Origin: Chloroflexi bacterium OHK40
GTDB lineage: Bacteria; Chloroflexota; Chloroflexia; Chloroflexales; Chloroflexaceae
Length of the DNA stretch: 44,854 nucleotides
Reading direction: 5' to 3'
NCBI GenBank assembly: GCA_004367505.1
Contig: SFCB01000121.1
Span: forward strand, 1 to 44,854
The notes under the pieces are model-generated. The model ran no database searches, was not told the DNA's origin, and saw only the letters and a list, made by a program, of their open reading frames with translations. The position numbers and the translations under genes are program-made. Position 1 is the stretch's first letter; every line of letters begins with the position of its first letter. Positions 27,705-44,854 of this stretch are shown in pieces.

Positions 27705-28790
27705 TCAGACAGAGGCGCCGAGGCTGGCCAGGGGCTCATCCACCGCCACGACGTCGAGGGGCAGGCGCACCGGCAGGCCGCTGCGGGCCGAGCGCACGCA
27801 GGCCTCACAGGTCTCGACGGCGGCGCGGCCATCCTCGCCGGTGACGCTGGGGGCCCGGCCCTCGCGCAGGCAGTCGATGAACTCCTGGAGCATCGCGGCA
27901 TGGGCGGCCATGCGCACAGGCGAGTTGGGATCGTTGCGGAAGTCGAAGGGCGGCTGCTCCCAGATCACCTCCCAACTGCGCTGCCTGCCGAGCCGTACGT
28001 TCGAGTACTGGTCCATCTCGAGCAGGCCGCGATCGCCGACGACCATGAAGCGAGTGCCGTGCTCGGGGAAGACGGCGTCGGGCAGTTCAAAGCAGAGGTT
28101 GAGTTGGGCCATGGCGCCGCTGGCGTAGCGCACCTGGGCCATGACGCTCATCGCGGGGAGTGGCAGGTCGGTCTGGGTGTCAATGTAGGCGAAAACCTCG
28201 GTCGCCTCGCTGCCGGTGAGCCAGCGCATGTAGTCGAAGTTGTGGACCGCCTGGTCGTAGAAGTGGCCGCCGCCAGTCGGCTCGCCGATCCAGGGCTTCT
28301 CGGCGACCGCGGCCAGGAAATCCTCGCGGGAGTGCATCGCGTAGGTGCGGATCTGCAGCACCCGCCCGATCGCCCCGGCGTCGACCAGTTCTTTGGCACG
28401 GGCCATGGTGCCGCGGAAGCGCAGGGTCTGGCTGACCATCAGGGTAACGCCGGCCTCGCGGCAGGCGGCGATCATGGCGTCGGCCTGGGCCACGCTTGGC
28501 GCAAACGGTTTCTCACTGAGTACGTGCTTGCCGGCGGCTGCAGCAGCCCGCACCTGCGGGAGGCGGATCTGCTCGGGCGTCGCCAGGATGACGGCGTCGA
28601 TGTCGGGCCGTGCCACAAGGGCCTCGATGCTCGGCTCGGCGGCGAGCCCGTACTCGGCCGCGAGGGCGGGGGCACGGCGGCCCACCGCCACCGCCACGGG
28701 CGCTGCGCCTCTCGTGTGCCGGGCCAGGGCCTCGGCGTAGGTGCGAGCCATGTATCCGGAGCCGACGATGCCGATGCGGACAGTGTCCAT
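27705..28790 (-). CDS. Gfo/Idh/MocA-family oxidoreductase
   Basis: A 361-aa NAD(P)-dependent sugar or inositol dehydrogenase-like protein. The Rossmann start RIGIVGSGYMARTYAEAL (5-22), the cofactor/catalytic motif SEKPFA with Glu93-Lys94-Pro95, and the GGGHFYDQAVHNFDYMRWLTG segment with the likely catalytic Asp/His are all present. The C-terminal tail carries the TGEDGRAAVETCEACVRSARSG motif also found, decayed, at 41774-41917. The start at 28790 has GAGGAGC upstream; the longer frame is rejected. It is co-transcribed with the ABC transporter, so it probably oxidises the imported substrate. Confidence 0.92.
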   Translation of the reverse strand: MDTVRIGIVGSGYMARTYAEALARHTRGAAPVAVAVGRRAPALAAEYGLAAEPSIEALVARPDIDAVILATPEQIRLPQVRAAAAAGKHVLSEKPFAPSVAQADAMIAACREAGVTLMVSQTLRFRGTMARAKELVDAGAIGRVLQIRTYAMHSREDFLAAVAEKPWIGEPTGGGHFYDQAVHNFDYMRWLTGSEATEVFAYIDTQTDLPLPAMSVMAQVRYASGAMAQLNLCFELPDAVFPEHGTRFMVVGDRGLLEMDQYSNVRLGRQRSWEVIWEQPPFDFRNDPNSPVRMAAHAAMLQEFIDCLREGRAPSVTGEDGRAAVETCEACVRSARSGLPVRLPLDVVAVDEPLASLGASV

Positions 28791-33507: not shown

Positions 33508-34554
33508 GTGGCCAGGCAGCTACGCTACGGCATCCTGGGCTCGGGCTTTATGGGCCGCACCCACGCCGAGGCGATCCGGCATCTGCCGAACGCGACCCTG
33601 AGCGCGGTGGCCTGTGGCCGCCGGGCGCCCCGTCTCGCTGCGGACTACGGGGTGGCCCTGTGCGCGTCTGCCGAGGAGCTGATCGGGCGCAACGACGTGG
33701 ACGCGGTGATCATCGCCACGCCGCAATACGCCCACGCAGAGGAGGCCCTCGCCGCCGCCGCTTGCGGCAAGCATCTGTTCATCGAGAAGCCCATGGCGAC
33801 GACCGTCGAGGACTGCGACGCCATCCTGACGGCCTGCGCCGCAGGCGGTCTGTCGCTGTCGGTGGGTTACCAGCAGCGCTATCGGGCCGTGCCCAGGGCT
33901 GCCCACGACCTGCTGCGCCAGGGGGTGATCGGGCAGCTCCTCACCATCCAGCTCTTCCAGGTCTTCCAGCTCTTCAGCGACCCGGCCTTCGGTGGCGACT
34001 GGTCGTGGTGGAGCGACCCCCGAGCGGTCGGCCACATTCTGGCCGGGGGTGTCCACGGGATCGACTTCTGCCGCTGGGCTCTCGGCGCCGAGGTGGTGAG
34101 CGCCGTGGCTCACTGCCGCACCTTCCGCGAGCAGCAGGAGCCGGAGAATACCACCATGGGGCTGTTGACCTTCAGCAACGGCGCGGTGGCGGCCCTCTGG
34201 GCGACCAGCGCCTGTCCGCAGCCTGGATTCCCCGGCCTGGCCTTTCGTGCCTTCCTGATGGGCGAGCGCGGCATTATGGACATGGACGCCTACGAGGCCT
34301 TGCGCGTGGCGGAGGGCGGGGCGTGGCGGGTGGCCGCCGAGCAGCCCCCCGTCAATACCGAGCAAGCAGCCACCGCTTTCCAGCAGCCGCGCATGGGCGC
34401 TTACATTGCCCAGCTCGCCGCCTTCACCGACGCGACCCTGGCTGGCACCCCACCTCCCGTCAGCGGCGCGGACGGGCGCGCCGGGGTGGCGGCCGCCCTC
34501 GCCCTGCTTGAGTCGTCGCGTAGCGGCCGCATCGTGCAGCTGGGGGGAGCCTGA
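33508..34554 (+). CDS. Gfo/Idh/MocA-family oxidoreductase
   Basis: A 348-aa NAD(P)-dependent dehydrogenase. It has YGILGSGFMGRTHAEAI (7-23), IEKPMA with Glu93-Lys94-Pro95 at the same positions as the Gfo protein at 27705, and GGVHGIDFCRWALG with the likely catalytic Asp. The C-terminal VSGADGRAGVAAALALLESSRSG tail is typical. The GTG start is preceded by GGAGG. It is the first gene of a four-gene operon, 2 bp before an aldo/keto reductase. It resembles the Gfo/AKR pair of the divergent operon, so the two pairs probably act on related or successive intermediates. Confidence 0.92.
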   Translation: MARQLRYGILGSGFMGRTHAEAIRHLPNATLSAVACGRRAPRLAADYGVALCASAEELIGRNDVDAVIIATPQYAHAEEALAAAACGKHLFIEKPMATTVEDCDAILTACAAGGLSLSVGYQQRYRAVPRAAHDLLRQGVIGQLLTIQLFQVFQLFSDPAFGGDWSWWSDPRAVGHILAGGVHGIDFCRWALGAEVVSAVAHCRTFREQQEPENTTMGLLTFSNGAVAALWATSACPQPGFPGLAFRAFLMGERGIMDMDAYEALRVAEGGAWRVAAEQPPVNTEQAATAFQQPRMGAYIAQLAAFTDATLAGTPPPVSGADGRAGVAAALALLESSRSGRIVQLGGA

Positions 34555-37720: not shown

Positions 37721-37736
37721 GGGCCAGGCTCTCAGC
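37716..37736. terminator. Bidirectional hairpin across convergent stop codons
   Basis: A 21-bp palindrome, GCTGAG-ggccaggct-CTCAGC, in which nine of ten potential pairs are Watson-Crick and one is G-T. It contains the TGA of the aminotransferase (37718-37720) and the TGA of the opposing aldolase (37734-37732) in mirror positions. There is no T-tract, but the dyad can form in both transcripts and lies in an 11-bp gene spacing. Confidence 0.55.
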
Positions 37737-38487
37737 GGCCACACGCCGCGACGATCTGCGCGAGCCCCTGGGCGAGCAGGGCGCTCGGCTCGCCGATGCA
37801 CAGGAAGCTGTACCCCTCACGCGCCAGGGCCGGGCCGTCGCCGATCATCCACATATTCTTGCCCGCCGCGCGACCGGCGGCCCGGATTCGGGCCAGGGCC
37901 CCGACGAGTCGTGGGTCGGACGGCTCCCAGCAGCAGCCCAACTCCGCCGAGAGGTCGTAGGGGCCAACGGCGATTGCCGTCGTCAGGGGGTGAGCGGCGA
38001 TCGCGGCGGCGTTCGCGAGGCCTTGCCGCGTCTCGATCTGTGGCAGGATCACCAGGTGCTGCTCGAACTCGTCGCGCCAGGTTTGGTACTGGACATCCCC
38101 CAGCCAGTGGTTGCCCCATCCGCCTGGTCGGCGCCGCCCTCGTGGCGGCAGCAGGGCCGCCTCGGCCACTGTGTCGAGTTGGCCCGGCTCCTCGACCGAG
38201 GGCAGCATCAGGCCGCAGGGGCCCAGATCAAGGGCCCGCCGGACCTGGTCGTGGGCGCACGAGACGACCCGGATCAGCACGGGCAGGCCGACCAGCCGCC
38301 CGATCTGGCAGGCCTGGGCCACCTGGGCATCGTCGTGGGGGCCATGCTCGCGGTCGATAATGATGTAGTCGAGCCCCGCCAGCTTGCAGAGCTCCACCAG
38401 CCTCGGCCAGAGGTGCTCGGTCACCAGCACACCGGCGGTCAGTTGCTCCCCCCTGATGCGCCCGATCAGCGCGGCGGCGTGGTTCAC
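37732..38487 (-). CDS. HpcH/HpaI-family class II aldolase
   Basis: A 251-aa metal-dependent aldolase with DREH (Glu47-His48), LIRV with substrate-binding Arg, Glu152 (QIET) and Asp178 (GPYDLS) as metal ligands. The metal ligand numbers are the same as in the aldolase at 35567 although the sequences are well diverged, and this copy has an Arg/Gly-rich loop (PPRGRRRPGG, about 114-123). The GTG start at 38487 follows GGGGAG. It is the last gene of the minus-strand block that begins beyond the right edge, 57 bp after the Gfo gene. It presumably cleaves a 2-keto-3-deoxy acid in the catabolism of the ligand brought in by that block's transporter. Confidence 0.9.
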   Translation of the reverse strand: MNHAAALIGRIRGEQLTAGVLVTEHLWPRLVELCKLAGLDYIIIDREHGPHDDAQVAQACQIGRLVGLPVLIRVVSCAHDQVRRALDLGPCGLMLPSVEEPGQLDTVAEAALLPPRGRRRPGGWGNHWLGDVQYQTWRDEFEQHLVILPQIETRQGLANAAAIAAHPLTTAIAVGPYDLSAELGCCWEPSDPRLVGALARIRAAGRAAGKNMWMIGDGPALAREGYSFLCIGEPSALLAQGLAQIVAACGR

Positions 38488-38544: not shown

Positions 38545-39654
38545 TCAGGCCCAGCCCCGCTCGCGGGCGAGGTCGGCGAGGGCGGTGGTGCCGGGGGGCA
38601 GAGGCAGGGCCACGGGGGCGCTGCCGCGCCGCTGCGACTCGTAGATCGCCTCGATGATCTCCATCGAGGCGCGGCCGTCGGCTCCCGTGGAGCGCAGGGT
38701 GGCGCGGCCCTCGAGGGCATTGACCAGCTCGCGGGCGGCCAGCAGGAACGCGGGCGGCCCAGGCTCGACCGCCAGCGGCTGCCATACCAGGCTCTGCCAC
38801 TCGAACTCAGGGTGCTCGGCGGGCGGGTTCTCGATGTGGATGGGTGTGGCGGTGCCAATCTCGCAGCCGTCGTTGCCGAGGCGCATAGCCCCCCTGGTGC
38901 CGTGGAGCTCGACCCCAAAGCGGGTGTAGGCGGTCAGTTCGTTGACCTGGGTGATTGCGGTGACGCCGCCGTCGAAGCCGATCAAGGCCGAGCTGTCATC
39001 CTCGACCGGGTACTGGGTGTGGGCGCGGCGGGTGGCGGTGGCAGCCACCCAGCGGGCGTCGCCGGCGAAGAAGCGCAGCACGTCGAAGAGGTGGGTCGCG
39101 TCGTGGAGCAGCGGGCCTTCGAGCTCAGACTGCCAGCCCGGCGCGGGCTTGCCCCCCTGGCAGTAGCCAGTCATGGCCACCAGGTCGCCGATCGCACCGG
39201 CGCACAGCAACTCGCGGGCCCGCTGGTAGGCGGGGTACCAGCGCCGCGAGTGGTTCACCGAGAGCAGCACGCCCGCCCGGTTGCAGGCTCCAACGATGCG
39301 CTCGGTGTCGACCATGTTGAGAGCCAGAGGCTTCTCGCAGAAGATCGCCCGTGCGCCATTGGCCACGGCGGCCTCGACGATCGCCGCATGGGATCCGGGA
39401 TGGGTCGCTACACAGACGATCTCGGGGCGCACCTCGTGCAGCATCTCCTCGTAGTCGGTGTAAAGCGCTGTCACCCCGAAGCGCCTGCCGAACTCCTCAA
39501 GCCGCGCCCGGCCACGGTTTGCGCCGGCCACCAGCTGGCACTCGGGCAGCAGCGCGAAGGCCCCCGCGTGCGACACCCCCGTGGGCGGGTCGCTCTCCCA
39601 TAGCGCACCCACCCGCCCCGTCCCCACCACTGCCACTCGGTATCGCTGTGTCAT
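38545..39654 (-). CDS. Gfo/Idh/MocA-family oxidoreductase
   Basis: A 369-aa NAD(P)-dependent dehydrogenase. It has VAVVGTGRVGALWE (8-21), where the cofactor loop is longer than in the other two Gfo copies, CEKPLA with the conserved Glu-Lys-Pro, SVNHSRRW and LLHDATHLFDVLRFF with the probable catalytic Asp/His. The tail STGADGRASMEIIEAIYESQRRG is typical. It lies between an HpcH aldolase and the dipeptide-type permeases. It is the most divergent of the three Gfo proteins in the window, so a different substrate from the other two is likely. Confidence 0.92.
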   Translation of the reverse strand: MTQRYRVAVVGTGRVGALWESDPPTGVSHAGAFALLPECQLVAGANRGRARLEEFGRRFGVTALYTDYEEMLHEVRPEIVCVATHPGSHAAIVEAAVANGARAIFCEKPLALNMVDTERIVGACNRAGVLLSVNHSRRWYPAYQRARELLCAGAIGDLVAMTGYCQGGKPAPGWQSELEGPLLHDATHLFDVLRFFAGDARWVAATATRRAHTQYPVEDDSSALIGFDGGVTAITQVNELTAYTRFGVELHGTRGAMRLGNDGCEIGTATPIHIENPPAEHPEFEWQSLVWQPLAVEPGPPAFLLAARELVNALEGRATLRSTGADGRASMEIIEAIYESQRRGSAPVALPLPPGTTALADLARERGWA

Positions 39655-39717
39655 CGCTTCGCTCTGCCTCCTCGCTGCGGGCAGGGACGTGGCAGAGCCA
39701 GGCCCCCACGATCAGCG

Positions 39718-40623
39718 CTACTTGCCCTCCACCGCCCGCGGGTCGATCGCGTCGCGGATGCCGTCGCCAACGAAGTTCACGGCTAGCACGAAGAGCACGG
39801 TGCAGATCCCGGGGGGGATCCATTGCCAGGGCGTCTGCTCCATGGTGCTGATCGAGCGGGCGGTGTTGAGCATATTGCCCCAACTGGGCGTTGGCGGCTG
39901 AACGCCCAGGCCGAGGTAGCTCAGGCCGGCCTCGAGCAGCACGGCCGTAGCGACCCCAAGGCTGGCGTACACTAGCAGCGGGGCCATCGCGTTGGGCAGG
40001 ATGTGGCGCCAGGCGACCTGCAGATCGGTCATACCGATGCAGCGGGCCGCCTCGACGTACTCCTTCTGGCGCAACGAGAGGAACTGCCCACGCACGATGC
40101 GGCAGGGCGTCGGCCAGGTCAGCAGGCCGATGATGATCATGATCTTGTAGATCCCTGGCCCCAGGATCGCCACCACGCTCAGCAGCAGCACGATCAGCGG
40201 GAAGCACATGACGATATCGACCAGCCGCATGATCACATTGTCGACGAGGCCCTGGTAGTAGCCGGCGATCGCGCCGAGCACTGTTCCGACGACGAGCGAG
40301 CAGAGTACGGCTACAAGGCCCACCGATAGCGAGACCCGCCCGCCCACTAGGGTGCGGGCAAAGACGTCGCGGCCCGTCCGGTCGGTGCCAAAGGGGTGCT
40401 CCAGGCTGGGGGGCAGGTTGCGGGCCCGCAGGTCGGGCGAAAGCGCGGCCTCTTCCGAGCCGAGCAGCGCTGCGATCACCAGCACAACGATGATCACCAG
40501 CCCGATCATTGCCAGCCGGTGATGGCGGAAACGGCGCAGCGCCCGGGCCGTGGGCGAGTCCGAAGTGGCACGCCGCTCCTCGCGCGGAAGCACCAGGGTC
40601 TGTGAGAGGTTCTGCTGGCTCAT
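39718..40623 (-). CDS. Peptide/nickel-type ABC transporter permease (DppC-like)
   Basis: A 301-aa inner-membrane permease. The N-terminal soluble segment and first helix (MIGLVIIVVLVIAALLG) are followed by HPFGTDRTGRDVFARTLVGGRVSLSVG, the hallmark of the DppC/OppC family, and the EAA loop YVEAARCIGMTDLQVAWRHILPN. GLSYLGLGVQPPTPSWG and the C-terminal GDGIRDAIDPR are canonical. It follows the DppB-like gene by 2 bp. No ATPase (DppD/DppF) is present nearby. Confidence 0.94.
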   Translation of the reverse strand: MSQQNLSQTLVLPREERRATSDSPTARALRRFRHHRLAMIGLVIIVVLVIAALLGSEEAALSPDLRARNLPPSLEHPFGTDRTGRDVFARTLVGGRVSLSVGLVAVLCSLVVGTVLGAIAGYYQGLVDNVIMRLVDIVMCFPLIVLLLSVVAILGPGIYKIMIIIGLLTWPTPCRIVRGQFLSLRQKEYVEAARCIGMTDLQVAWRHILPNAMAPLLVYASLGVATAVLLEAGLSYLGLGVQPPTPSWGNMLNTARSISTMEQTPWQWIPPGICTVLFVLAVNFVGDGIRDAIDPRAVEGK

Positions 40624-40625
40624 GG

Positions 40626-41582
40626 CTATCCGTATCTGATGCGCGGGTCGGCTGCTGCGTATGCGAGGTCCGTGAGCAGGTTGGCGAGCAACACGCTAGC
40701 CGCAACCACAAGGTTGACGCCCATGATCAGCGGGTAGTCGCGCCCGGCGACCCCCTCGACGAAGAGCGAGCCCATGCCGGGCCACGAGAAGACCGTCTCG
40801 GTGATCACGGCGCCGCCAATCATGTCGGGTAGGGCCAGCCCGATCACTGTGATGACCGGGATCAGCGCGCTGCGGAAGGCGTGCACGATCACCACCGTGC
40901 GCTCCCGCAGGCCCTTGGCCCGCGCCGTGGTGATGTACGCGCTATGGATCACCTCGAGCATCGAGGACCTGGTGTAGCGCATGAGGATGGCGATGTAGGC
41001 GAAGCCCAAGATCATGGCCGGTAGCGCCAGGTGGTGCAGGAAGTCGAGCAGGCTGAAGGGCTGCCCCGGCGTGACCATGCCTGCGATCGGGAACCAGCCC
41101 AGGCGCAGCCCGAACACGTAGAGCCCCCCGAGGCCCAGCAGGAACGAGGGCGACGAGATGCCGAGGAAGGCGATCGTCGTCAGTGTGAAGTCGAGGGTCG
41201 AGTACTGGCGCAGCGCGGAGATGATCCCCAGCGGAATGCCGACCAGGCAGCCGATCGAGAGCGCTGTGCCCATCAGCACGATCGAGTTGACCAGGGCCCG
41301 GCCAACCACCTCGTCCACGGGGCGCCCGCCCACCGCCCGGTAGCCAAGGTCGCCCTGCAGCACGCGGCTCAGCCAGCGGCTGTAGCGCACGGGCAGGGGC
41401 TGGTCAAGCCCCAGCTCCCTGCGCATCGCCTCGCGCAGCGCGGGGTTGGCCCCCTGCTCCGGGCTCAGGTAGGCCGATACAGGGTCGCCAGGGGCCAGGG
41501 CGATGAACGTGAAGACCAGGACGGTCACGCCCAGCAGCACCGGGATGTTAATCAGCAGGCGTCGCAAGATGTACTGTCCCAT
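40626..41582 (-). CDS. Peptide/nickel-type ABC transporter permease (DppB-like)
   Basis: A 318-aa inner-membrane permease starting MGQYILRRLLINIPVLLGVTVLVF, with the family segment PGDPVSAYLSPEQ, LGLDQPLPVRYSRWL, GDLGYR and the EAA-type loop IHSAYITTARAKGLRERTVVIVHAFRSALIPV. The C-terminus NLLTDLAYAAADPRIRYG is canonical. GAGAGGAGA precedes ATG 41582. It pairs with the DppC-like permease downstream; a fragment of a second binding protein lies immediately upstream. Confidence 0.94.
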   Translation of the reverse strand: MGQYILRRLLINIPVLLGVTVLVFTFIALAPGDPVSAYLSPEQGANPALREAMRRELGLDQPLPVRYSRWLSRVLQGDLGYRAVGGRPVDEVVGRALVNSIVLMGTALSIGCLVGIPLGIISALRQYSTLDFTLTTIAFLGISSPSFLLGLGGLYVFGLRLGWFPIAGMVTPGQPFSLLDFLHHLALPAMILGFAYIAILMRYTRSSMLEVIHSAYITTARAKGLRERTVVIVHAFRSALIPVITVIGLALPDMIGGAVITETVFSWPGMGSLFVEGVAGRDYPLIMGVNLVVAASVLLANLLTDLAYAAADPRIRYG

Positions 41583-41696
41583 GGTCTCCTCTCAGGCGCC
41601 GGCACGGCCCCCGCCGGACTGTCCGATGGCGCGCCAGGGGTGTGCCCCCGCAGCGCGCCGTACGTCGAGCGCTCTCGATCCCCCCAGGAGCGGGCC

Positions 41697-41774
41697 CTAC
41701 TCGCGGATGAACCACAGCTCGGCCTGGTCGTAGTACGAGCCGCCGCTCGGGGCCGGCTTAAAGAAGAAGTTGCC
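41697..41774 (-). pseudogene. C-terminal fragment of a family 5 solute-binding protein
   Basis: The minus strand reads NFFFKPAPSGGSYYDQAELW FIRE and then a stop (TAG, 41699-41697). This matches the C-terminus of the solute-binding protein at 43235 (NFVYTPAPGGGSYYDAAELW SIEE, with 17 or so identical positions). Everything upstream of about 25 residues is missing, so this is the leftover of a paralogous binding-protein gene that once preceded the DppB-like gene, as in a normal dpp operon. The remnant ends abruptly near 41774, where a different gene fragment on the other strand begins. Confidence 0.8.
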
Positions 41775-41917
41775 ATATCGGCGTCGTGCAGGGCTTCGTC
41801 GAGGCCATCCTCGCCGACACTGCGCCCCCAGTGAGCGGTGCCGATGGGCGCGCCGCCGTGGCCATCTGTGAGGCCTGCCTGCGCTCTTCCGCTACGGGGC
41901 CGGCCATTGCCCTGTAG
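41774..41917 (+). pseudogene. C-terminal fragment of a Gfo/Idh/MocA oxidoreductase
   Basis: The plus strand reads HIGVVQGFVEAILADTAPPV SGADGRAAVAICEACLRSSA TG and a stop (TAG 41915-41917). It matches the C-terminal tail of the Gfo proteins at 27705 and 33508 (VSGADGRAG; GRAAVETCEACVRSA). No start codon or Rossmann domain is present on this side. It abuts the tail-to-tail solute-binding fragment within a few bases, so the two pieces were joined by a deletion or inversion that removed the rest of both genes. Confidence 0.8.
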
Positions 41918-41949
41918 AGCGCAGCCGGCCACGCCGTAGAGGCGCAACC

Positions 41950-43059
41950 CTACAGCGCGGCCGGTAGCCGGAACCAGCGGATCACTGAAACGCAATCTTC
42001 GACGCACCAGAAGGCCACGAAGACCTCGCCGTCGGGCATCAGCAGCCCGGCGGGCAGCCCGAAGCGCAATTTCGCGAAGCTGTGGCTGAGGTTGTCTCCG
42101 CCAACACTGTAGCCGCCGCCCCCGGAATCGTGGCCCCACAGCGCCAACTGGGCCTCGTTCACCCAGTTGGCGCCATCGAGCCGCGTGTAAGCGGCCCAGA
42201 GCCCCCGTGCGTCGGTGCGCCGGTAGACGCAGACGAGGCGCCCCTCGCCAAGCAGGATCGGCGTCGTGGTCTGCCCCTGGAGGCCCGTCGGGCGCGGCGG
42301 CCCGAAGCTGCGCCCCCCGTCGTGCGAGAGGGCGTAGTGGACCTCACGGTCGCGCCCCACCGCCAGGTCGTGGGTCCAGCAGACCGCCAGCAGGCGCCCG
42401 TCGCCCAGTTCGACGATCTTCTGTTCCCAGTAGATCACCCCCTCGGCGCTGCCGTCCATGACATCGACGTACTCGGGCCAGCTCGCCCCACGGTCGTGTG
42501 AGATCAGGGCGATCGCCTTCATGCCGTTGGGGCAGTACCCCTCCCAGCCCTTCCATGTCGCCGTGGGGACGAGCCAGCGCCCGTCGGCGAGGGCCAGGGC
42601 GGGGCTGCAGATCTCGAACGATGGCCCAACCAGGGGCGGTTCGACGACGGTCGGCCCGGCCCAGCTGCGGCCGCCATCGGTCGAGCGCAGCTGGATGAGC
42701 TCAGTCTCGACAAAGCCGAGTGTCGCCGGGTTGGTCAGGCCCTCGTCCTCGCGCGAGCGATCCCAGCGCGCCCCAAAGGCCAGCAACTCGCGATCAGACA
42801 TGCGGCTTATGCGCACGTGGGACGAGGTCGGGCGCGCGGTGTGCCGGCTGAAGATGGGCCCCTCCTGTTGCCAGGTACGGCCACCGTCCAGCGAGCGGGC
42901 CAGCATGGTGCGGTGGTCAGCGCTCTCAAAGCCACTGCCGAGCCCATAGGCGGCCAGGAGGGCGCCGTCCGGAAGCAGGGCCAGCGAAGGAAAGCTTGCC
43001 TGGCGGCTGGCGAGGTGGGGCTTCGGGTTGGCGTAGATCAGGCCGGTCTCGATGACCAT
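41950..43059 (-). CDS. Asp-box (BNR) exo-alpha-sialidase-like protein
   Basis: A 369-aa beta-propeller protein. Four Asp-box motifs are visible: SLDGGRTW, STDGGRSW, SHDRGASW and SHDGGRSF. The N-terminal region contains FPSLALLPDGALLAAYG. No signal peptide or lipobox is seen, so it is probably cytoplasmic, unlike most secreted sialidases. The family includes sialidases and other glycosidase-like or structural propellers, so sialidase activity is not certain. ATG 43059 with AGGA upstream gives the typical start; the frame extends 75 codons upstream through a hairpin and is rejected there. It lies between the solute-binding gene and the transporter permeases of this block. Confidence 0.82.
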   Translation of the reverse strand: MVIETGLIYANPKPHLASRQASFPSLALLPDGALLAAYGLGSGFESADHRTMLARSLDGGRTWQQEGPIFSRHTARPTSSHVRISRMSDRELLAFGARWDRSREDEGLTNPATLGFVETELIQLRSTDGGRSWAGPTVVEPPLVGPSFEICSPALALADGRWLVPTATWKGWEGYCPNGMKAIALISHDRGASWPEYVDVMDGSAEGVIYWEQKIVELGDGRLLAVCWTHDLAVGRDREVHYALSHDGGRSFGPPRPTGLQGQTTTPILLGEGRLVCVYRRTDARGLWAAYTRLDGANWVNEAQLALWGHDSGGGGYSVGGDNLSHSFAKLRFGLPAGLLMPDGEVFVAFWCVEDCVSVIRWFRLPAAL

Positions 43060-43173
43060 AGTCCGTCCTGTGTGCAGCTTCAGGAGTGGCGAGGAGGGCT
43101 CCTCCGCCAGACACCTGGCCCCACAGTCGCGATCAGGGATTGAGCCCGTATCACTTCTGGCTTGATCCTGTGC

Positions 43174-43202
43174 GCCAGCGGGGGATCGCGCCCCCCGCTG
43201 GC
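43174..43202 (-). terminator. Intercistronic stem-loop after the family 5 solute-binding gene
   Basis: A perfect 11-bp stem (GCCAGCGGGGG / CCCCCGCTGGC) with a 7-nt loop, starting 32 bp after the stop of the binding-protein gene and before the BNR gene. There is no T-tract, so it may act as a partial terminator and 3' protection of the binding-protein message. A smaller hairpin (GAGGAG / CTCCTC) lies at 43092-43105. Confidence 0.65.
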
Positions 43203-43234
43203 ATCTTCTGCACAGCAGCACCCAGGCCCCGCGC

Positions 43235-44854
43235 TTACTCCTCGATCGACCAGAGCTCGGCGGCGTCGTAGTAGGAGCCGCCACCAGGCGCCGGGGTATA
43301 GACGAAGTTCTGGATGCGATTCGACACCGCGACGTAGCGCTCCTGCTGCCAGAGGAAGATCCAGGGCAGCGTCTCGGACATTATCTCGCAGGCCTGCTGG
43401 TAGATCTCAGCCCGGGCCGCCGGGTCCATCGTGCTGGCGCCCTCCTCGAGAGCTGTGTCCAGCTCGGCGTTTGCGAAGCCGAGGTTGTTAGTGCCCTTGG
43501 GCCAGGCCGAGGACGAGTGGAAGTACTGGAAAGCACGGTGCGGGTCGGGGCCATTGGCGCCCCCAGCGAACGAGGCGCCGAATGCGAGGTCCTCGTAGTA
43601 GAGCTTGGTCCACGACGGGCCGTCCATCTGACGCGGCGTCACCGTGATGCCGACATCGGCCAGGTAGGCCTGAATGGTCGTCATGACGTCGAGGGAGAGC
43701 GGGTCGTTGTAGTAGGTCGAGAGCTCGATCTCGCCCACCGCAGCGCCGTCGAAGCCAATCTCCTCCAGGAGCGCCCGGGCCTGATCAGGGTCGTAGGGGT
43801 ACTTCGCGGCGACACTGTCGGGGATGTACTGGCTGTTGCCGTAGAGGCAGTTGACCGGGGTCGCGGCGCCGTTGTAGAGCGTCTCGATGATCGCCTCGCG
43901 GTCAATCGCGTAGAGGATGGCCTGGCGGAACCTGGGATCGCCGAAGATCGGAGTCTTGACCGAGTTGAACGAGAGGAAGTTGTCCACCTGCGAGGGCCCC
44001 GCGATCACGGTCACGTTGGGGTTCTGACGCAGGCGAGCAACCTCATCGGCGGTCACGTAGGCAAGGTCGATCTCGCCATTCTCCAGGGCCAGCAGGGCCG
44101 CCGCCGGGTCGGCGAAGCTGCGCCGGATCAGCCGCTCGAGCACGGGCGCCCCGCGGAAGTAGTCGTCGAAGCGGACCAACTCGGTGAACTGGCCGGGTTC
44201 ATGGTTGCTCATCTTGAAGGGGCCGGTGCCGATGGCGACCGTCGACCAGTAGTCGCTCTGGTCGATCGTTGCGCGGTCCAACGTTCCCAGCGAGGCCTCG
44301 TGGAGGATCCAGGTCTCGGCCAGGGTATCCAGGAAGGGGGCGTTCGGGGTCGTGGTGGTGATCGCAATCGTCGTCGGGTCGATCACCTCGATGCCCGCGA
44401 TCTCGGTCGCCGTGCCGTCCACGAACTCCTGGGCGCCCTCGATGGCCAGCAGCTGGCTAGCCTTGCTGCACCCACCGCTCGCCGGGTCCAGGCAGATCTC
44501 CAGTGAGAAGGCTACGTCGTTGGCGGTGAAGGGCGAGCCGTCGTGCCAGGTCACGCCTTCGCGCAGGGTAAAGGTCCAGGTCAGGTTGTCGTCGGAGATC
44601 TCCCAGCTCTCGGCCAGGTCGGGCACGATCGCGGTGTACTCGACGTTGTAGGTCACCAGGTGGCTGTAGATCTTGTTCAGCCAGTGGTAGTCGCCGCCGG
44701 CCTTGAGCGGGTTCAGGTTGTCAACGCCGACGCAACAGGGTCCGTTCCATGCGCCGGTCATCGTGCCGCCGCCCGCCGCCGTGGGCGCCGGGGCCGGGGC
44801 GCTGGTCGGGGCGGCTGCCTCGGTGGGCGCCGGAGCACTTGTTGGGGCCGGGGC
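43235..44854 (-). CDS. Peptide-type ABC transporter solute-binding lipoprotein (family 5), partial
   Basis: 539 residues are in the window; the 5' end lies beyond the right edge. The first 30 residues visible are an Ala/Pro/Thr-rich tether of the kind that follows the lipobox Cys of lipoproteins, and the frame stays open to the edge, so the gene does not begin at the ATG 44761. The mature part is an SBP_bac_5 fold (WNGPCCVGVDNLNPLKAGG ... WEISDDNLTWTFTLREGVTWHDG ... FRQAILYAIDREAIIETLYNG). Family ligands are peptides, nickel, opines and some glycosides. It is the first visible gene of the minus-strand transport block. The tail matches the fragment at 41697-41774. Confidence 0.9.
   Translation of the reverse strand, partial: APAPTSAPAPTEAAAPTSAPAPAPTAAGGGTMTGAWNGPCCVGVDNLNPLKAGGDYHWLNKIYSHLVTYNVEYTAIVPDLAESWEISDDNLTWTFTLREGVTWHDGSPFTANDVAFSLEICLDPASGGCSKASQLLAIEGAQEFVDGTATEIAGIEVIDPTTIAITTTTPNAPFLDTLAETWILHEASLGTLDRATIDQSDYWSTVAIGTGPFKMSNHEPGQFTELVRFDDYFRGAPVLERLIRRSFADPAAALLALENGEIDLAYVTADEVARLRQNPNVTVIAGPSQVDNFLSFNSVKTPIFGDPRFRQAILYAIDREAIIETLYNGAATPVNCLYGNSQYIPDSVAAKYPYDPDQARALLEEIGFDGAAVGEIELSTYYNDPLSLDVMTTIQAYLADVGITVTPRQMDGPSWTKLYYEDLAFGASFAGGANGPDPHRAFQYFHSSSAWPKGTNNLGFANAELDTALEEGASTMDPAARAEIYQQACEIMSETLPWIFLWQQERYVAVSNRIQNFVYTPAPGGGSYYDAAELWSIEE

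Follow-up and report, generated by a model that had tools for sequence, protein, structure and literature searches.

The window, i.e. the whole stretch of 44,854 nucleotides analysed, ends in a minus-strand transport operon with the gene order solute-binding protein (SBP), BNR/sialidase-like gene, two gene stubs, OppB, OppC and Gfo/Idh/MocA, followed by an HpcH/HpaI gene. The features are listed below from the contig end inwards; identities refer to the locus L045 (JAAUQO010000213.1) of Oscillochloris sp. MAG RM1_1_4 (hereafter G006), a member of another genus.

43235..44854, minus strand: family-5 binding protein of the operon (SBP; PF00496, 2.7e-91), N-terminus off the contig end
43174..43202, minus strand: hairpin shortly after the end of the full SBP (z -1.98 for the segment 43100-43237)
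41950..43059, minus strand: BNR/sialidase-like gene of 369 aa, intact, located between SBP and OppB (profile match, structure match, distribution)
41777..41917, plus strand: Gfo', remnant of a Gfo/Idh/MocA-type protein, last 46 codons and stop (matches to two Gfo tails in the window)
41771..41783, no strand: junction of the two truncated genes (possible breakpoint range, set by the ends of both homologies, with no bases left over between them)
41697..41774, minus strand: SBP', remnant of a family-5 solute-binding protein, last 25 codons and stop (24 residues aligned with the tail of the operon SBP at 71% aa identity)
41583..41696, minus strand: spacer from the SBP' stub to the OppB start (folding no better than shuffles, z 0.32)
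40626..41582, minus strand: OppB-type permease, intact (89% aa identity)
39718..40623, minus strand: OppC-type permease, intact (83% aa identity)
38545..39654, minus strand: operon Gfo/Idh/MocA gene, intact (81% aa identity)

SBP' translates from the minus strand of 41697-41774 as GNFFFKPAPSGGSYYDQAELWFIRE, with its stop codon at 41697-41699, and Gfo' from the plus strand of 41777-41917 as IGVVQGFVEAILADTAPPVSGADGRAAVAICEACLRSSATGPAIAL, with its stop codon at 41915-41917. The initial annotation had read these stretches as the tails of a binding protein and of a Gfo/Idh/MocA protein, both with intact relatives in the window, and a translated search found similarity to both of the named protein tails. 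SBP' matches the C-terminus of the operon SBP (E-value 4.6e-7), from whose tail it differs at 22 of 78 nucleotides, and a search with the whole operon SBP as the query also recovers the SBP' stretch (E-value 9.7e-5). Among 100 genomes, the window's own included, the only other non-self matches of SBP' at E<=0.1 were the SBP C-terminus of G006 (E-value 5.6e-7) and one protein in G099 (E-value 8.1e-5). Gfo' matches the tails of two Gfo proteins of the window, namely 27705 (tail 27768-27893; 45% identity, E-value 5e-8) and 33508 (tail 34414-34536; 54% identity, E-value 1.3e-7), and the similarity extends to the DNA level (80% over 63 query bases against 27790-27854). The E-values, each computed for one whole genome, lie well beyond chance, and both remnants are genuine protein tails. 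SBP' is assigned to SBP_bac_5 by its C-terminal homology to intact members with the stop in register, and Gfo' to Gfo/Idh/MocA by the same kind of homology with a stop near theirs. The remainder of SBP' is absent upstream, where the homology ends at about 41774-41783 and another gene lies beyond; the NAD-binding Rossmann domain expected of Gfo' is likewise absent, there being no PF01408 match on contig C98 from 39639 to 44854. In a set of 400 genomes of the phylum, 19 (the window's own included) contain matches to Gfo' at E<=1e-5, those in other genomes being 44-63% identical over 34-44 aa; no SBP' match was found in the surroundings of three of these Gfo' relatives (L223-L225).

The two homologies meet at about 41771-41783, where a common junction near 41774 had been proposed, and the cut ends come together to within some 12 bp, without filler. 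The relative orientation of the genes had, however, been misread: they were said to point toward each other and to be joined tail-to-tail. The minus-strand tail SBP' lies on the left and the plus-strand tail Gfo' on the right, hence the stops point outward, the truncated upstream ends abut, and the stubs read away from each other. Within 41400-42100, the range scanned, which takes in the block only as far as position 42100, flanking direct or terminal inverted repeats amounted only to short imperfect matches; over this range a mobile-element insertion scar is not supported.

Among 99 other related genomes, only G006 contains an OppB match of >80% identity. Its locus is collinear with the window over 8.6 kb, with the SBP 87% identical at the amino acid level, and its full SBP ends 79 bp before the OppB start. 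The same adjacency prevails elsewhere: in 98 loci of 5 kb or more, with 93 OppB hits (two loci counted twice, as L045/L185 in G006 and L180/L192 in G242), an SBP lies upstream on the same strand within 5 kb of OppB in 76 and within 600 bp in 74, the two larger gaps being those of L046 (1153 bp) and L110 (2264 bp). No SBP was detected upstream of the remaining 17 hits, four of which have <700 bp of DNA there. In the close set (19 distinct loci with OppB >50% identical) the SBP is upstream in 17, at a distance of 201 bp at most; L046 and L048 depart from this, the latter without a detected SBP upstream. The operons of four Chloroflexota loci (G006/L045, G242/L192, G202/L190 and G356/L191) agree with the window in order and protein families, but unlike the window they carry neither BNR nor stubs between SBP and OppB, where the gaps are 43-97 bp. 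The SBP subfamily itself has matches in nine of 158 genomes of the class, the window's own included; seven of the eight others have OppB on the fetched stretch and show no BNR between SBP and OppB, and the contig of the eighth (G494, L219) has no OppB match. Since G006 is collinear without the block and SBP adjoins OppB in most loci, the window has about 1.6 kb more than G006 between these two genes, namely the intact BNR gene and the stubs.

It had been suggested that the BNR gene and a second binding protein took over the place of the lost genes. The comparison supports the BNR gene as an addition but not the second SBP as a newcomer: on sequence evidence, the SBP at 43235 is the original one of the operon, the collinear ortholog of the SBP directly before OppB in G006, and the additions are the BNR gene and the stubs. 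The comparison with a related locus thus delivered a collinear relative without the block, but no genome with an intact SBP'-Gfo'-BNR block was found.

The BNR gene lies in a longer frame (41950-43284) that matches PF13088 (1.1e-13), and its protein matches the bacterial sialidase 1eur (E-value 5.3e-12). No BNR match at E<=1e-10 was found in the 40 other genomes of the same family searched. The nearest relatives among the 400 phylum genomes belong to other families and are 48-51% identical, and matches at E<=1e-45 occur in 12 genomes, the window's own included. In G242 and G202, BNR homologues (47-49%) share a contig with an SBP-OppB-OppC operon, about 2.5 kb from OppC in the former and about 11 kb from SBP in the latter, which suggests that the BNR gene may be a pathway companion and not random cargo. 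Weaker homologues (28-30%) lie on operon-type contigs of G356, G099 and G496, and the fetched stretches around four other BNR relatives (L178, L181-L183) contain no SBP or OppB matches. Composition gives no sign of a foreign origin, the GC3 of BNR (0.88) falling within the range of the operon genes and neighbours (0.87-0.92).

We propose, with a probability of roughly one half, that the lineage once carried an extra block between the operon SBP and OppB, comprising BNR, Gfo' on the plus strand and SBP' on the minus strand, and that Gfo' and SBP' formed a divergent pair whose heads faced each other. A single deletion that began within SBP' and ended within Gfo' would have taken both heads together with the intervening promoter region and left, as a non-functional scar, the two tails abutting at their cut ends in a clean join near 41774. 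Such an arrangement occurs in G202, which has one of the nearest relatives of the operon detected (OppB 63%, SBP 49%): there a Gfo and an SBP gene stand divergently in front of OppB-OppC, with the aligned parts of their heads 378 bp apart. A pair of this kind and one deletion would give exactly the geometry of the window. Such divergent SBP/Gfo pairs occur only twice in the 98 loci, the other being distant (L076, 24% identities), and the Gfo tail of G202 is not especially close to Gfo' (17 of 43 residues). The spacers of the window and G006 align too poorly for placing the ends of the block, and the spacer 41583-41696 has no reliable alignment to G006.

The initial annotation had the rest of both genes either lost or inverted. 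Loss agrees with the failure to find either body in the assembly: there the operon SBP has its next best match at only 31% identity, and all 24 matches of PF01408, the Gfo head, lie in open frames of at least 345 aa, a frame-length test that is loose because open frames can extend beyond the gene. The lack of a second close SBP and of a short PF01408 frame is thus consistent with loss of the bodies rather than their relocation, and inversion would be superfluous, as a single deletion would be enough. The stubs themselves are probably functionless. Over 26 codons (one at the junction and maybe non-homologous), SBP' differs from the full SBP by eight amino-acid-changing and five silent codons, whereas the full SBP differs from G006 in the tail codons by one and ten, respectively. 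This excess of amino acid changes points the way that a lack of constraint on a relic would predict, although the difference is non-significant: changes at codon positions 1-2 number 11 of 22 for the stub and 2 of 13 for the full gene versus G006 (Fisher p 0.07). Over so few codons SBP' may equally be a recent duplicate or an older paralog.

Three other explanations are ranked behind a single deletion in a gained block, in the order in which they follow. A possible but rather unlikely course is an insertion-duplication, in which DNA with BNR, a Gfo gene end and an SBP 3' end entered by a single crossover at the 3' end of the operon SBP, leaving a full SBP and a 5'-truncated copy flanking the cargo. 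The order expected from such an event would match the one seen (full SBP, BNR, Gfo stub, 5'-truncated SBP, OppB), and third-position divergence is equal, 11 of 26 between stub and full gene and 11 of 26 between full gene and G006. Against it, the repeat left is only 78 bp long at 72% identity, which is little for homologous recombination, and the G006-like tail is that of the full gene.

The polarity of the change could also be the opposite, if the common ancestor had the order SBP-BNR-Gfo'-SBP'-OppB and all that lay between SBP and OppB disappeared in G006; this would alter the polarity only, not the nature of the scar. The BNR homologues on operon contigs of the distant genomes mentioned above (G242 and G202; G356, G099 and G496) speak for such an ancestral block. 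We nevertheless hold it improbable, as in most of the relatives examined SBP immediately precedes OppB and none of the 40 other genomes of the family searched has a BNR match at E<=1e-10, so that the block was presumably gained in the window's lineage.

An assembly chimera at 41774 has to be considered for a contig of a draft genome that is split into 301 contigs, its contamination being estimated at 3.52%, the more so as only 3.1 kb separate the junction from the window end. We regard it as improbable as well: both flanks belong to the same locus, with the SBP ortholog on the right and OppB on the left, neighbours in G006; the repeats around the join are only short and imperfect; and a separate contig with the SBP' body was not found. 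Finally, chance open reading frames unrelated to the named proteins can be dismissed despite the shortness of the stretches (25 and 46 codons), being refuted by the matches to the named protein tails (E-values 5e-8 and 4.6e-7 against the whole genome) and by stops close to those of the relatives.

A scar of this kind had been offered as a possible explanation for the missing transporter ATPases. Beside the operon of G006 (contig L185) and of G242 (contig L192), both without the scar, nothing similar to the ATPase of the window (28826) was found; missing ATPases thus occur without the scar, and the explanation is not supported. The genome furthermore contains 20 oligo_HPY matches, 19 of them above the cut-off (Opp-type ATPase domains), on other contigs. 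ATPase matches near the operon were found in G202 and G356 and at the loci L049, L050, L052 and L054.

The stretch is a real but ordinary gene-remnant scar. Ordinary gene remnants and pseudogenes of prokaryotes, such as those surveyed in PMC522871, resemble those of the window in being truncated gene ends in an intergenic region, plausibly left by gain and then loss; the window differs from them in that two different genes are cut at one breakpoint and both heads are gone. The scar documents an episode of gene gain and gene loss in a transporter operon and has little significance beyond the locus. Its analysis identifies the SBP at 43235 as the operon's original one, in correction of the earlier reading, does away with an attractive explanation of why the ATPases are missing, and provides in the stubs an example of coding relics that are visible only via short-stretch comparison with neighbouring paralogs. 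A far-reaching and, in our view, highly doubtful extension is that the SBP-OppB gap is a preferred site at which such Chloroflexota operons gain and later discard pathway genes, leaving stubs; it would draw on the BNR gene in the window and the HpcH-like gene in L046, with the scar as a fossil of one exchange.

A few minor observations concern the relatives and the operon's surroundings. The HpcH-like match of L046 (L046:5206-5805), a locus of an Anaerolineae MAG, lies between SBP and OppB, in the same gap as BNR in the window. In the window, an HpcH/HpaI aldolase-family gene (37732-38487, minus strand) stands between the operon Gfo and aminotransferase genes; it is missing there in G006, where the aligned genes are no more than about 66 bp apart. 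The HpcH gene of G006 and its Gfo335 ortholog contain frameshifts, which are likely sequencing errors given the coverage of 3.45 stated in the record. The contigs of both genomes end within the Ala/Pro/Thr-rich N-terminal linker of the SBP (44750-44854 in the window), possibly a repeat-driven assembly break. G006 also has a hairpin directly after the SBP stop (L045:1619-1658; z -5.79 for its SBP-OppB spacer), and this hairpin and its counterpart in the window are possibly mRNA-stabilising or attenuating elements.
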